This document shows, piece after piece, positions 3,241 to 8,522 of a stretch of 64,000 bases of DNA (positions are counted from its first letter, which is position 1; the number at the start of each line of letters is the position of its first letter). The position numbers were made by a program, and so were the translations under genes. This stretch comes from Elusimicrobiaceae bacterium (GTDB lineage Bacteria > Elusimicrobiota > Elusimicrobia > Elusimicrobiales > Elusimicrobiaceae). The stretch covers positions 124,001 to 188,000 of the forward strand of contig JAFZUQ010000006.1 of assembly GCA_017618215.1 (NCBI GenBank), given 5' to 3'. Below the pieces are notes generated by a model, which saw only the letters and a list, made by a program, of their open reading frames with translations, was not told where the DNA came from and ran no database searches.

Positions 3241-4947
3241 TTAAAACGGAAGATCTTCATCTTCAGTTTCTTGTATTTCTTTTAATTTTTCATCAACATT
3301 GTTTTTAAAATCTTTAAAAGCTTGTGAAGTTAAAATAGTTGGCCCCGGCAAAACTATATTATTCTTATCGTCCTCCAACTCATTAGGTTTAGAAATAATT
3401 TTTATATTATTAAGTGATTTAACTTTTTCCTTCAGTAATTTGCGTGAAACGTCGTCAGAATTAGAACAATCAATATATATCGTTTTATCTTGCTGTTCAG
3501 CAGTTTTCCAAACAGCTTTTATGACACTCAAAGCAGATTCATCTATCTCACCTATTTCTTTATCCACTTTTATCTTATCTTCCTTATTTAATCTATATGA
3601 ATCATTTCGTCTTAACGTTCCGTTTTTATCATCTATCATCACTGGTAATATAGCATTCTCTTCCTCATCCAAAGGCCATATTTTGTAATCGTCTTTTGCA
3701 TTAATTACCTTATAGTAAGTAGGAGGAACACCTTCTCTTTCTTCTGATACAACCTCCTCCTCCCCATTTGTATCACGATATATTGCCCGAATTACTGGTT
3801 TAGCAGATTCTGGTAATTGAACGTCAGACTCTGATTCAGCCGTTTTAGCTTTTGCATTTAACTTCTCATTTTCTTGTTCTTGTGATTGTGATTGAATTTG
3901 AGCTTTAACTTGCGTTCTTGTTTCTCTAGCAAAACCGGCAGCTGTAAAACCGCCATCTTGCGGAGATTGCCCAGCACCTACACCAGTAGAACTTGAACCA
4001 CCGGCGAAAAAACCACGTGAAGTCCCATCGGAACCGGAATAACCACCACCGTTACCGCCGGTAGAAGAAGACATCTTTAAATTAATACCTTTTAAATTCG
4101 CATAAGCGTTGCTCAAAGCATTATCGTCAAAACCTTTATCATTTGTGGAAACACGAGCATAATTCATTCCGCCCATATTGCTGGCTGTACCATTTCTATA
4201 ACTTGTGGCAGATATCTGATTATTTGCGGAAGAATAAGCTTGCTTTTGCTTTTCCCGTTGCAAAGCATTCAAAATTTCCATATCACTGGCACCCGGAAAA
4301 CGCTTTTTTGCATTCAAAAATTCTTGTTCGGAAATATTTTTTTTCATTATTTCCTTATAAGGGATATGCCCTTTCGGTGTAACAACGTATCTGTCACCTT
4401 TAGCATCTTCAATAACATCATAGTTTTGCCCGTTAATTGTAACATAGCCTTTTATAGGGCTACTATTTGCACCATTGTAAGAACCAGGGTAAACATTGTC
4501 GGATAAGCTGTTTACATTATTTCCTACATCATAAGTTTTACGATTTGGATTTTTCGCATTTACAGCGGCTAAATCAAAATTTTTAAAATTTCTTGAGGAT
4601 GCAACCAAAGTGCCATTTTGGGAATTAAGGCTCTGCTTCGTTTTTGTTTGGGAAGTTAAATAATCCCCTTTATTAAAAGCATGATTACTGGCGACCTTCT
4701 CTTTTATGAAATTCATTTTTTTTGTGGGAGCGGGAACATCACCCGAAACCGGCTTAGAAAAACCATAAAAAGAGGCTATTTTATTAGCCAATTTTGAAAT
4801 AGGGTTAGACTGATAAGACATCCCGGACTTTACGGCGAAAGGGGAGAAGTCTTCTTCTTCCTCATTACTATAAATGAAAGGAAGAGTAAAAAATGCAATA
4901 ATTGCAAGTAAGGCTATTTTACCAGAATTTCTTCTTAAAAAACCCAT
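3241..4947 (-). CDS. Membrane-anchored low-complexity protein, unknown function
   Basis: The 568-residue protein has one N-terminal hydrophobic segment (about residues 9-27, KIALLAIIAFFTLPFIYS) that looks like an uncleaved anchor. A long Ser/Asn/Gly-rich region follows, with a Gly/Ser tract around residues 290-330 (STGGNGGGYSGSDGTSRG), then a charged Glu/Lys region. The C-terminal third alternates beta-like stretches and acidic linkers. No enzyme motif is visible. The region outside the membrane looks exported and flexible, as in surface or scaffold proteins. There is no clear ribosome-binding site before the ATG at 4947. A promoter is visible at 4999-5026. It is co-transcribed with the ankyrin-like gene 15 bases downstream. 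Confidence 0.7.
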   Translation of the reverse strand: MGFLRRNSGKIALLAIIAFFTLPFIYSNEEEEDFSPFAVKSGMSYQSNPISKLANKIASFYGFSKPVSGDVPAPTKKMNFIKEKVASNHAFNKGDYLTSQTKTKQSLNSQNGTLVASSRNFKNFDLAAVNAKNPNRKTYDVGNNVNSLSDNVYPGSYNGANSSPIKGYVTINGQNYDVIEDAKGDRYVVTPKGHIPYKEIMKKNISEQEFLNAKKRFPGASDMEILNALQREKQKQAYSSANNQISATSYRNGTASNMGGMNYARVSTNDKGFDDNALSNAYANLKGINLKMSSSTGGNGGGYSGSDGTSRGFFAGGSSSTGVGAGQSPQDGGFTAAGFARETRTQVKAQIQSQSQEQENEKLNAKAKTAESESDVQLPESAKPVIRAIYRDTNGEEEVVSEEREGVPPTYYKVINAKDDYKIWPLDEEENAILPVMIDDKNGTLRRNDSYRLNKEDKIKVDKEIGEIDESALSVIKAVWKTAEQQDKTIYIDCSNSDDVSRKLLKEKVKSLNNIKIISKPNELEDDKNNIVLPGPTILTSQAFKDFKNNVDEKLKEIQETEDEDLPF

Positions 4948-4998
4948 ATTATTTTTAGCTATACCACTGCTTTCTTGAAAATTTTACTTCTTTCCTAT

Positions 4999-5026
4999 AT
5001 TATATCACATTTTAGAAAAAATGCAA
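4999..5026 (-). promoter_or_regulatory. Sigma70-type promoter for the 4947-2299 operon
   Basis: On the minus strand TTGCAT (5026-5021), a 16-base spacer and TATAAT (5004-4999) precede the gene that starts at 4947, giving a leader of roughly 45 bases. Confidence 0.6.
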
Positions 5027-5124
5027 GAGGTTTTTTATTTTATATTTTTACGACGTAGAATTTTATTTCTGTTTAAATATTACAGAATTTCATTTCCATA
5101 TTTTATATAATATATGTAGTATCT

Positions 5125-5209
5125 GGAGAGGTGTGTGAGCGGTTGAAACAGCAGGCCTCGAAATCCTGTATACCGAAAGGTATCGAGGGTTCAAATCCCT
5201 CCCTCTCCG
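5125..5209 (+). tRNA. tRNA-Ser, anticodon CGA (codon UCG)
   Basis: The 85-base cloverleaf has a perfect 7-bp acceptor stem (GGAGAGG / CCTCTCC) with discriminator G. The anticodon loop is CTCGAAA and there is a long variable arm (TACC GAAA GGTA), as expected for serine. The T arm is GAGGG TTCAAAT CCCTC. CCA is not encoded. The last anticodon-stem pair is a C-U mismatch. A TATAAT-like box (5106-5111) lies just upstream and a terminator (5219-5246) just downstream, so the gene is probably transcribed alone. Confidence 0.96.
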
Positions 5210-5218
5210 AAAAAATTT

Positions 5219-5246
5219 ACCCTCCTTTACGGAGGGTGAATTTTTT
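5219..5246 (+). terminator. Terminator of tRNA-Ser
   Basis: Stem ACCCTCC (5219-5225), loop TTTAC, stem GGAGGGT (5231-5237), then GAATTTTTT. It begins ten bases after the tRNA. Confidence 0.85.
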
Positions 5247-5407
5247 GGATGGAGGAAAGCCAACTGCTTGGCTTTCCGTCGGGATTTGAAGGGCGGAGCG
5301 ATGTTTTTGTTTGAGCGAAGCGAAAGGCGAGGATGGCGAGCCCCGGCCCGAAGGCTTTTTGCGTCAGCAAAAAGACCGGAGGGAAATCCCTCCCCTCTAA
5401 CTAAATT
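5247..5407. repeat. Hairpin-rich intergenic segment with tRNA-end-like sequences
   Basis: This non-coding, GC-richer stretch holds two perfect hairpins: GGAAAGCCAA CTGC TTGGCTTTCC at 5254-5277 and CTTTTTGC GTCA GCAAAAAG at 5355-5374. An exact 11-base copy of the tRNA-Ser 3' region (AAATCCCTCCC, 5193-5203) recurs at 5384-5394. Its inverse core GGGATTTGAA lies near 5281-5290. GGGATTT and AAATCCC therefore bound the inner 110 bases as inverted repeats. It could be a MITE-like or REP-like element, a structured RNA, or the scar of an integration at the tRNA. The sequence alone does not decide. Confidence 0.45.
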
Positions 5408-5444
5408 AAAAACACCCGTAAGGTTTAACCTTACGGGTGTTTTT
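5408..5444 (-). terminator. Terminator of the glmU-prs-rplY operon
   Basis: Perfect inverted repeat AAAAACACCCGTAAGG / CCTTACGGGTGTTTTT with a five-base loop. It lies 25 bases beyond the rplY stop and would work on both strands. Confidence 0.92.
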
Positions 5445-5468
5445 ATTTCAAAGAATAATTTTATAAAA

Positions 5469-6158
5469 TTATTTCTTTTCGGCAGGTTTCTTATCGCCTG
5501 CGGCAGCTGCACCTTCTTCTTCTTTCTTACCTTTTGTAGCAGAAAGTTCAGGTTGTGCGGCTTCAGTTCCTGCGGCTGCGGCAGCAGGTGCTGCAACAAC
5601 TTCTTCACGCGGAATCATGATGTGAACAATCATTCTGTCTGCTTCGCCTAAAATGGTAACGCCTTTAGGGGCAACCAAGTCAGCCAAAGTTACATGTTTA
5701 TCTAATGTTAAGCCGGTAATATCGACATCAATTTCATGCGGAATATCGGCAGGTAAACATTTGATAGCAACTTCACGAACAGTATGGTCCACGATACCAC
5801 CGTTTTCTTTAACCCAAGCACAATCGCCTTTCAGGACAATTGGAACAACGGTTTCAAGAGGTTTATCCATAGAAATTCTTTGGAAATCAACGTGTATCGG
5901 GCTATCGGTTACAACATGATATTGAACTTCTTTGATAATAGCGTTTTCAGTGCCTTTAGGTAAGGCAATTTCGACGATGGCATTGCTGCCTGATTTTTGA
6001 ATTTCAGCCAAATCTTTTTGAGAAACGGTTATAGAAACAGGTTCTAAACCTTCACCATACAAGACCGCTGGGATGTTCTTTTGGGCTCTGATTTTTGAGA
6101 GTTCCCCACGAACGCCGGCCTTTTCTCTAGGCTGAGCATTAATTTTTACTTTTTGCAT
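5469..6158 (-). CDS. rplY: Large ribosomal subunit protein bL25 (general stress protein CTC type)
   Basis: The 229-residue protein binds 5S rRNA in the 50S subunit. It has the N-terminal L25 beta-barrel (about 1-92, with RGELSKIRAQKNIPAVLYG) and the C-terminal TL5/CTC domain (about 95-185). A low-complexity tail (AAPAAAAAG, then KKEEEG and KKPAEKK) makes it longer than E. coli L25. The ATG at 6158 is chosen because GGAGGA precedes it by seven bases; in-frame sequence extends five codons upstream to a TTG. It is the last gene of the glmU-prs-rplY unit and is followed by a strong terminator. Confidence 0.93.
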   Translation of the reverse strand: MQKVKINAQPREKAGVRGELSKIRAQKNIPAVLYGEGLEPVSITVSQKDLAEIQKSGSNAIVEIALPKGTENAIIKEVQYHVVTDSPIHVDFQRISMDKPLETVVPIVLKGDCAWVKENGGIVDHTVREVAIKCLPADIPHEIDVDITGLTLDKHVTLADLVAPKGVTILGEADRMIVHIMIPREEVVAAPAAAAAGTEAAQPELSATKGKKEEEGAAAAGDKKPAEKK

Positions 6159-6187: not shown

Positions 6188-7138
6188 TTAATTAAACATT
6201 TCGCTGATTGAGCGGCCATCATGGTTACGGCTGATGGCATCTGCCAAAATATGTGCTATTGAAAGCACTTGTATTTTGGAACTTTGCTTGCGGTTTTCAG
6301 GCAAAGTATCTGTTATAAAAAGTTTTTCCAAAGCGGAATTTTCAACTTTATCTACACCGTCCCGTGATAAAACACCGTGCGTTGCGACGGCATAAACTTT
6401 TTTGGCACCACTTTCTTTAACTTTATTTGCAACAACTGTTAAAGTGCCTGCCGTATCAACAATATCGTCGACAATAATAGCAGTTTTATCTTTAACATCA
6501 CCGATTAAGTTGTAAACAACCGCCTCATTCTTTTTGGGGCGTCTTTTATCAATAATAACCAAACCTGCTTCCATACGGGCTGCAAAACGTCTTGCACGTT
6601 CCACACCACCGACGTCAGGTGAAACTATTACTAAATCTTTGGGTTTATTTTTAAGGAAATAATCTAAAAATACGCCGCGTGCACGAAGGTGGTCCAAAGG
6701 AATATCAAAGAAACCTTGAATTTGGCCGGCATGCAAATCCATAGCCATGACTCTGTCAGCACCGGCATGAGTAATAAGATTTGCTACAAGTTTTGCCGTT
6801 ATCGGAACGCGCGGGCTGCTTTTCCTATCAGCACGTGCATAACCGTAGTAAGGTACAACAGCGGTAATGCGCGCCGCTGATGCACGTTTTAGAGCATCAA
6901 TGGAAATTAAAAGTTCCATTAAGTTTTCATTAACGGGTGTGCAAGTGGGTTGGATAACATAACAATCAGCACCGCGTACGCTTTCGGTAACCTGGACATC
7001 AATTTCGCCGTCGGCAAAACGCTCCACACGCATGGAGCCGAGTTCTTTACCGAGATGTTTTGCAATCTTTTCCGCTAAGGCGCGGTTTGCATTACATGTG
7101 AATATTTTTAGTTCCCTGGGTACAATAGGGTCGTTCAT
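6188..7138 (-). CDS. prs: Ribose-phosphate pyrophosphokinase
   Basis: PRPP synthetase transfers pyrophosphate from ATP to ribose 5-phosphate, supplying PRPP for nucleotides, histidine and NAD. The 316-residue length is standard. Visible motifs are the N-terminal FADGEIDVQV, the flexible catalytic region SPDVGGVERAR near residue 160, and the PRPP loop VDDIVDTAGT near residue 217. The ATG at 7138 lies one base after the glmU stop, with AAGGAAAA inside the glmU end serving as ribosome-binding site, so translation is probably coupled. GlmU and Prs both work on phosphosugars and nucleotides, and this gene pair is a known conserved order. Confidence 0.97.
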   Translation of the reverse strand: MNDPIVPRELKIFTCNANRALAEKIAKHLGKELGSMRVERFADGEIDVQVTESVRGADCYVIQPTCTPVNENLMELLISIDALKRASAARITAVVPYYGYARADRKSSPRVPITAKLVANLITHAGADRVMAMDLHAGQIQGFFDIPLDHLRARGVFLDYFLKNKPKDLVIVSPDVGGVERARRFAARMEAGLVIIDKRRPKKNEAVVYNLIGDVKDKTAIIVDDIVDTAGTLTVVANKVKESGAKKVYAVATHGVLSRDGVDKVENSALEKLFITDTLPENRKQSSKIQVLSIAHILADAISRNHDGRSISEMFN

Positions 7139-7139
7139 T

Positions 7140-8522
7140 TTATTTTCCTTTTTTGTTTTTGAGATTCACTTGCCTTGCCCTAGCTATTGCCAAAGTTTTG
7201 GCAGGTATATCTTCCGTTATGGTGGAACCTGCGCCTATTTTAGCACCGGCACCCACTTTAACAGGTGCAACAAAATTTGTATTGGAACCGACAAAAACAT
7301 CATCCCCGATTATCGTTTGATGTTTATGTTCCCCATCGTAATTACAGGTTATAGCACCGGCACCGATATTAACACCTGCGCCCATAACCGTATCCCCTAT
7401 ATAAGAAAGGTGCGGAACTTTGGAACCCTTGCCAATCGTGGACTTTTTAATCTCCACAAAACTGCCGATTTTAGCTTTATTTTCTACAACAGTTTGCGGG
7501 CGGAGTTTCGCAAAAGGCTCTGTTTGTGAACCTTCCTTTAAATAGCTGTCTAAAATGTAGCAAGACATTTTGATTTCAACATTATTTTCAAATTTTGAAT
7601 TTTCTATCCAGCAATTTGGGCCGATTTTGCAATTTTCGCCAATAACTGTTTTACCATAGATATAACAGTTCGGATAAATAACAGTATCAGCACCGATTTT
7701 GACTGTTTTATCAATATAAGTATTTTGCGGATCAATTAAAATTACGCCCTCATTCATAAGTTTATTATTGATTTTTTCGCGCATGGCTTGTGCGGCCTCG
7801 GCAAGCTGTTTTTTGGAATTTATACCCATGGCCTCTTTATAATCTGCGGCTTTAAAAATTTCCACTTTCTTGCCTTGTTTTTGAAGAAGGGCCAAAGTAT
7901 CTGTTAAATAATATTCGTGTTTTGGGCCTTGCGGTTTTAAGAGTTTTAAAACCTTTTCAAGGTCTTTTACTTCAAAAATATACATGCCGGAATTTACTTC
8001 TTTAATAGGTGCGGTTTTAGAATCTGTTTCACTTTCTTCAACAATTCTTATTATGTTGTTTGTTTTAACTATACGCCCGTAACCTTTCGGGTTTGGAACT
8101 TCAACAGTTAAGACGGTGCAAGAGGCTTTTTTTGCATTATGATGTTTGATAAGTTGTTTTAAAGTATCGGCTTCAATTAAAGGGGCATCACCTGCTAAAA
8201 TTAAAACTTGTTTGTATTTTTTGAGTGCGGGCATTGCGGATTTTACTGCAGAGCCACTGCCGTTTAAAACTTTTTGCAAAGCAAATTCCGCTTTTGCTTT
8301 GATACCCCAAGCAGAATAATTTTCTTTAACTGTTTGTTTTAAAATATCAGCCTGATGTCCGCATAAAATGACATTTGCCGCAGGTTTTAAAGTATCTGCA
8401 GTTTGTAAAATGTGTGCCAAAAGTGGCAACCCGAAAATTTTATGTAAAGGTTTAGGTGTGGCGGATTTCATACGTGTGCCCTTGCCGCCTGCAAGGACTA
8501 AGATTGATAAACTGGCTACCAT
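7140..8522 (-). CDS. glmU: Bifunctional UDP-N-acetylglucosamine pyrophosphorylase / glucosamine-1-phosphate N-acetyltransferase
   Basis: GlmU makes UDP-GlcNAc, the precursor of peptidoglycan and lipid A. The 460-residue protein has the nucleotidyltransferase signature LAGGKGTRMKS (10-20) and a Rossmann-like domain to about residue 230. A left-handed beta-helix of hexapeptide repeats follows (about 255-445, for example IGENCKIGPNCWI and VNIGAGAITCNYDG). The second stretch is the acetyltransferase active-site region. The start at 8522 has AGGAG eight bases upstream and an extended -10 promoter at 8557-8565. It leads the operon with prs and rplY. Confidence 0.97.
   Translation of the reverse strand: MVASLSILVLAGGKGTRMKSATPKPLHKIFGLPLLAHILQTADTLKPAANVILCGHQADILKQTVKENYSAWGIKAKAEFALQKVLNGSGSAVKSAMPALKKYKQVLILAGDAPLIEADTLKQLIKHHNAKKASCTVLTVEVPNPKGYGRIVKTNNIIRIVEESETDSKTAPIKEVNSGMYIFEVKDLEKVLKLLKPQGPKHEYYLTDTLALLQKQGKKVEIFKAADYKEAMGINSKKQLAEAAQAMREKINNKLMNEGVILIDPQNTYIDKTVKIGADTVIYPNCYIYGKTVIGENCKIGPNCWIENSKFENNVEIKMSCYILDSYLKEGSQTEPFAKLRPQTVVENKAKIGSFVEIKKSTIGKGSKVPHLSYIGDTVMGAGVNIGAGAITCNYDGEHKHQTIIGDDVFVGSNTNFVAPVKVGAGAKIGAGSTITEDIPAKTLAIARARQVNLKNKKGK

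Follow-up and report, generated by a model that had tools for sequence, protein, structure and literature searches.

A single tRNA gene, tRNA-Ser(CGA), is located on the forward strand of the window, the 64,000-nucleotide stretch of DNA analysed here, at positions 5124–5210 according to ARAGORN and 5125–5209 according to Rfam, with T54–C56 at 5190–5192, R57 at 5193 and position 73 at 5209. It is followed on the same strand by a trailer with a terminator-like hairpin (5210–5246; stem 5219–5225/5231–5237) and then by a chain of structured parts. At 5247–5253 lies the place of an optional inverted copy of the acceptor strand (a′), which is weak in the window's copy by inspection. Hairpin 1 (5254–5277) is 24 nt long, with a perfect 10-bp stem, a CTGC loop and covariation across its stem, and is followed by a″, an inverted copy of host tRNA nucleotides 54–63 (5281–5290, GGGATTTGAA). 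The adjoining covarying core of 93 nt (5291–5383) contains an outer helix (5291–5294/5340–5343) and further helices, and includes hairpin 2 (5355–5374; perfect 8-bp stem, GTCA loop). The direct copy of the tRNA tail, AAATCCCTCCC, occupies 5384–5394 and equals tRNA-Ser(CGA) from 5193 on, that is from nucleotide 57, over exactly 11 bases before it diverges. A preliminary description of this DNA had reported the two perfect hairpins, the exact 11-base direct copy and the inverted copy of the T-arm core, and all are present. It was also right that the GC content exceeds that of the adjacent spacers: the element (5247–5398) has a GC fraction of 0.57, compared to 0.33 at 5211–5246, 0.24 at 5399–5468, 0.20 at 4948–5123 and 0.36 for the whole window.

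The window element (5210–5398) contains no gene, and therefore no integrase gene of its own, even though a direct repeat of the tRNA 3′ end lies on its far side, as it does in tRNA-site integrative elements. Two open reading frames that run across the tRNA and/or the element, 5090–5608 on the reverse strand (172 aa) and 5268–5651 on the forward strand (127 aa), look spurious and could mislead annotation. The ribosomal-protein gene adjoining the element shares 97% protein identity with its counterpart in Elusimicrobiaceae bacterium Tb.RUG.145, which places the window's genome, a metagenome-assembled one, near the Elusimicrobiaceae.

A DNA search of the window's own genome returned 12 matches. 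We then employed a covariance model of 142 positions, built from a seed alignment of 28 of the 30 placed copies (L041 and L060 were omitted, and L040 was too short). In the same genome, the model produced 12 matches, a count that is complete for that search; all 12 are directly 3′ of tRNA genes on the same strand, and they occupy the flanks of 8 of the 43 tRNA genes. Across the 3′ flanks of all 43, the arrangement is found behind Leu, Met, Pro, Ser and Val tRNAs, and hairpin-only remnants are found behind tRNA-Asn(GUU) and tRNA-Val(UAC). At an E-value of 0.001, the model matched 71 of 198 Elusimicrobiota genomes, with the number of matches per genome varying within the genus from 0 to at least 15. 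In a set of named genomes, 7 of 23 had matches, including 2 of the 17 distant relatives: Candidatus Vogelbacteria RIFOXYB1_FULL_42_16, from the Patescibacteria group, and an uncultured bacterium. Within the phylum around the Vogelbacteria genome (Patescibacteria group), 26 of 192 genomes were matched, many of them with weak scores; 19 of the 21 matches inspected there start no more than 130 nt from a same-strand ARAGORN tRNA, as do 2 of the 5 in the uncultured bacterium. The preliminary description would have been overturned by a unique sequence, and what we found is many copies, in the same genome and in relatives, behind other tRNAs. The window element is one copy of a dispersed, structured family, and the covariance model provides a means of annotating such tRNA-linked loci.

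The family is closely linked to tRNA genes. After removing two doubly held loci and duplicates, the 175 model matches were reduced to 165 distinct ones from 76 genome labels, which are mostly the best matches per genome and so form a biased census in which decayed copies are under-represented. Among them, 123 start within 130 nt behind a same-strand ARAGORN tRNA, and the hosts of these close copies comprise 33 anticodon types. Another 31 lie 131–450 nt behind a tRNA and are mostly later copies in arrays. The remaining 11 have no upstream ARAGORN tRNA. By inspection, a tRNA tail at the very start of the contig precedes two of them (L166), the stretch that holds another three was cut short of its tRNA (L219), the T-arm and tail of a seemingly interrupted tRNA precede two more (L187 and L205), and one comes after a partial tRNA-Val (L062). 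No explanation emerged for the other three (L193, L196 and a weak second match in L165). The family order, read 5′ to 3′, is tRNA tail, trailer, hairpin 1, inverted copy (nucleotides 54–64), core and direct copy (nucleotide 57 on).

Covariance modelling, which the preliminary description had proposed as a check, revealed a conserved, covarying fold of the kind expected of a functional RNA, in an alignment that was fitted to the model and thereby favours structure. Over 95 distinct rows, all 26 modelled pairs show two-sided changes and 95.3% of their cells hold standard pairs; the covariation score is 0.585, compared to 0.160 for shuffled and at most 0.087 for slid alignments. An integration scar alone, one of the readings proposed earlier, does not account for a core that is conserved and covarying. 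Of the proposed structured RNA, the structure is well borne out, while the fold could act either as RNA or as DNA. We compared non-standard pairs in the element's stems (158 distinct rows; 62 G-U and 36 A-C in 3,830 cells) with those in the acceptor and T stems of the host tRNAs (42 G-U and 2 A-C in 1,224 cells; Fisher P-value 2.5e-5), a control for which the best-pairing gene start was taken and only tRNAs with at least 6 of the 7 acceptor pairs were kept, lowering its A-C count. The scarcity of G-U pairs and the comparable number of A-C pairs hint that the fold is read mainly as DNA.

Several copies depart from the common fold. A tRNA-like fold made from the acceptor copy, hairpin 1, a″, the core and the tail copy was considered and is not universal, as the acceptor part is absent on inspection from several copies. 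The hairpin 1 loop holds a near-constant GC-rich insert (containing GGGCACAGCGCC) in L015, L017, L023 and the second copies of L042 and L084, which is perhaps a smaller nested repeat. In L169 (G068, tRNA-Asn), additional sequence interrupts the copy after hairpin 1, ahead of the inverted copy, and again within the core.

We found that each copy is matched to the tRNA in front of it. Using 122 of the 123 first copies and 10,000 permutations, the inverted copy agreed with its own tRNA at 7.52 of 9 positions (6.02 when permuted), the direct copy at 11.37 of 13 (8.03 when permuted) and the acceptor copy a′ at 5.22 of 7 (4.47 when permuted); in all three cases, 0 of 10,000 permutations reached the observed mean. 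Since the arrangement recurs behind other tRNA genes and, over these 122 copies, no permutation equalled its agreement with the tRNA in front, the arrangement in the window is beyond chance. Over nucleotides 57–63, 84 of 122 inverted copies are free of mismatches, representing 18 different heptamers, as are 76 of 122 direct copies. A common departure of the inverted copy occurs at tRNA-Leu(GAG) (L119, L124, L132, L138, L140, L143 and L076), where TCGTCCC or a near form replaces the expected GAGTCCC.

The left edges of the direct and inverted copies are sharp, at nucleotides 57 and 54. Identity in the inverted copy rises from 0.05 at 53 to 1.00 at 54–56 and 0.97–1.00 at 57–62, and then declines to 0.88 at 63, 0.74 at 64 and 0.23 at 65; identity in the direct copy is 0.02 at 55, 0.66 at 56, 0.91 at 57 and 0.98 at 58, and fades past 73. 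These profiles draw on 104 (inverted) and 86 (direct) of the 122 copies, picked by a minimum tRNA match that favours agreement. Because nucleotides 54–56 are TTC in 121 of 122 hosts, the match of the inverted copy there may stem from an invariant part of the element. In the 44 cases in which the tRNA and the direct copy disagree, the inverted copy sides with the tRNA 32 times and with the direct copy twice, with 10 ties. Compared copy by copy (n = 122), the inverted copy is the better preserved of the two in 39 and the direct copy in 31, with no difference in 52, a mixed outcome under which selection for pairing between inverted copy and tRNA is only possible.

Related loci vary in occupancy. 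A tRNA-Met locus is empty in one genome (G022, L047) and filled in another (G077, L122); past the direct copy, the filled sequence continues like the empty locus, and the terminator between tRNA and element differs between the two. This is the one clear pair of loci examined, and it appears to have arisen by insertion, although it could reflect a loss. At the window's own locus, hairpin 1 survives as a fragment in one relative (L082), and the element is present twice in tandem in another (L084); tandem arrays of the element occur more generally.

Within a single genome, cores that follow different tRNAs are up to 95% identical, as for Ser and Met in G059 and for several in G025. Across 109 of the 122 copies, the median core identity is 0.68 for copies in the same genome with different tails (119 pairs), 0.68 for copies in different genomes with the same tail (257 pairs) and 0.60 for the remaining 5,299 pairs. 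As the first value is no higher than the second, vertical, tRNA-bound descent is possible. On its right side, the direct repeat has a ragged end. Of 86 classified copies, 22 stop at the end of the tRNA, 23 within the trailer, 19 at or close to hairpin 1, 4 within the core and 2 exactly at a″; a further 5 are full further copies, 7 are odd cases and 4 run into contig ends. With only these 2 of 86, the proposal that a″ is a frequent exact end point of last partial copies was rejected.

We searched for an enzyme that could mobilize the family. The Y1 transposase (PF01797) was found in 86 of 198 Elusimicrobiota genomes, and in none of the window's own genome and the copy-rich G014, G053, G056 and G059. 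The reverse transcriptase (PF00078) was found in 41 of the 198, with one weak match in the window's own genome (E 1.5e-7), and it is missing from many carriers. At least 10 carriers lack both (G004, G005, G006, G053, G056, G059, G069, G077, G082 and G089). Among 16 genomes, serine recombinases are absent from 5 carriers and present in 6 carriers and in 5 genomes without matches (G001, G007, G011, G018 and G099). The occurrence of these three enzymes does not track the element among carriers, and all three were rejected as mobilizers. Tyrosine recombinases are present in all 10 genomes tested, four of which have no element matches, and they are the foremost candidates for a trans-acting enzyme.

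Genes for tyrosine recombinases adjoin tRNAs at two loci, directly behind tRNA-Leu(GAG) in G077 (L276, 2931–4183) and directly before tRNA-Val(GAC) in G000 (L274, 10240–11562). The interval between tRNA-Leu and integrase in L276 shows no hairpin 1, antisense segment or core by inspection and yields no model match. In L275 (G077), a copy of the element lies behind a tRNA-Val fragment (3541–3800) with a tyrosine-recombinase gene nearby (6965–7969). Likewise, the element in L062 follows the 3′ portion of a tRNA-Val whose 5′ part is seemingly not intact, and the stretch before this fragment is similar to L275. Both loci give the impression that an island inserted into the tRNA on the upstream side of the element. 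A phage search with the element returned no match, two pattern scans of viral contigs found none, and a plasmid search returned 36 records, which among the matches listed had 27–33% query cover, at the tRNA part.

The match of each copy to its own tRNA, behind many tRNA genes in two groups of bacteria, points to an element of an undescribed kind, mobile or regulatory. Rfam 15 recognized the tRNA alone at the gathering score in the window, every non-tRNA match in a relaxed search of 5100–5420 fell below gathering, and 15 further loci gave the tRNA alone (18 matches). We found no matching description of the family in the open-access literature, preprints being outside the scope. In E. coli, tandem repeat units behind the tyrT tRNA gene each contain a copy of the tRNA 3′ end, and the element resembles them in lying behind a tRNA gene and containing such a copy; to our knowledge, the tyrT repeats are confined to a single locus, have no inverted copy and form no family across tRNA types. 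Integron attC arrays are made up of imperfect palindromes whose folded DNA strands are the active form, but in the element an arm of the palindrome copies the host tRNA. As far as Rfam and literature searches of incomplete coverage go, we know of no small repeat that carries direct as well as inverted sequence fitted to each of many different targets.

Among published systems, the nearest parallel that we found is the genomic islands at Dehalococcoides ssrA, which are inserted in the middle of the T-loop, create a 20-bp direct repeat of the RNA gene's 3′ end and can lie in tandem (PMC3146451). The element would likewise be a T-loop insertion with a direct 3′-end repeat. Unlike the islands, which according to the same sections carry genes and a serine recombinase and use a single tmRNA gene, the element is about 200 bp long, gene-free and found at many tRNA types, with a covarying core and an inverted, tRNA-matched copy, of which the sections of PMC3146451 at hand make no mention. 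The element shares with REPs and REPINs its small size, non-coding nature, palindromes and multiple copies; REPs, as described in the available part of PMC3733652, measure 20–40 bp, are mostly downstream of coding regions and in some classes have no known transposase. The element is longer (142 model positions), lies behind tRNAs and is matched to each of them, and judged on length and location it falls outside the class defined by 20–40 bp, a GTAG/CGTC tag and a place behind coding genes. Neither a Y1/RAYT transposase, as for REPs, nor a reverse transcriptase, as for retroelements, consistently accompanies its carriers.

Several mechanisms could generate a tRNA-matched element of this form. 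The reading that we favour, to which we give about even chances, is that the window copy is a non-autonomous mobile element inserted at T-loop position 56|57. A non-coding palindromic element would insert into the T-loop of a tRNA gene between C56 and R57, the inserted block would supply a new 3′ half and trailer to the tRNA, and the old 3′ half would remain past the element as the direct repeat. The antisense copy of the tRNA's own nucleotides 54–64, placed after hairpin 1, would span the insertion point and may be the part that recognizes the target or is templated by it. This comes close to the miniature mobile repeat targeting tRNA ends of the preliminary description, which is supported by the multiple copies behind tRNAs, the one empty locus in a relative and the similar cores behind different tRNAs; its mobility is the conjectural part. 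Copies may still be moving, the antisense segment may participate in targeting, and a host or trans-acting enzyme would presumably move the element. Against insertion stand the ragged right end, the single empty/filled pair, the equal median core identities within and between genomes and the lack of a mobilizing enzyme among Y1 transposases, reverse transcriptases and serine recombinases. Simple circle integration cannot explain the change of tRNA type, because the acceptor strand that the tRNA received would be a foreign one. Alternatively, the element could be a structured non-coding RNA made by read-through from the tRNA, whose antisense segment base-pairs either with its own pre-tRNA, at the T-arm, or with the tail copy, the latter forming a tRNA-like 3′ end, and which controls tRNA processing or supply. 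The strong covariation, the inverted copy's allegiance to the tRNA where the two copies differ and the shared strand of all 123 close copies argue for this main rival, but in the window copy, as in many others, a terminator-like hairpin separates the tRNA from the element, the G-U and A-C counts differ from those of tRNA stems, the inverted copy shows no clear advantage over the direct one in preservation and most tRNAs of the window's own genome have no element; we consider it a serious though unlikely alternative.

Less probable still is a non-mobile origin in which tRNA 3′ ends were duplicated in tandem, by replication slippage or by fold-back template switching, and gene conversion preserved and spread the core. 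Template switching could produce both copies, inverted and direct, from a single template, and both the arrays and the ragged right end would follow; a conserved, covarying core that is unrelated to the tRNA and found behind 33 anticodon types in two bacterial groups would not, nor would the sharp left edges of both copies. We find it very improbable that the copies are remnants of integrase-bearing islands attached at tRNA 3′ ends, or satellites of such islands: the core's conservation extends beyond an attachment site, the L276 stretch between tRNA-Leu and integrase has no element parts (few islands were inspected) and the phage and viral-contig searches were empty, even though T-loop insertion with a 3′-end direct repeat is known from the available account of the Dehalococcoides islands (PMC3146451) and recombinase genes adjoin tRNAs in L274 and L276.

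A bolder extension of the favoured insertion reading, which we put forward tentatively and think doubtful, is that these are bacterial mobile elements of a new class, which record their target within their own sequence. Entry into a tRNA gene would provide such an element with direct and inverted copies of the tRNA tail; the inverted segment of about 11 nt would be a re-made target guide, so that one core could fit any tRNA type and leave the tRNA unharmed. If true, an element with no visible enzyme would be sequence-matched to many different targets in at least two bacterial groups. It would then become testable how a small element recognizes tRNA genes, by DNA or RNA pairing, how the tRNA type changes without breaking the tRNA, and whether the element controls its host tRNAs. 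Separately, we observed genes with the motif GFTLIELLVV or GFTLLELLVV, which we take to be pilin-like, beside the tRNA/element loci L042, L083, L084 and L281.
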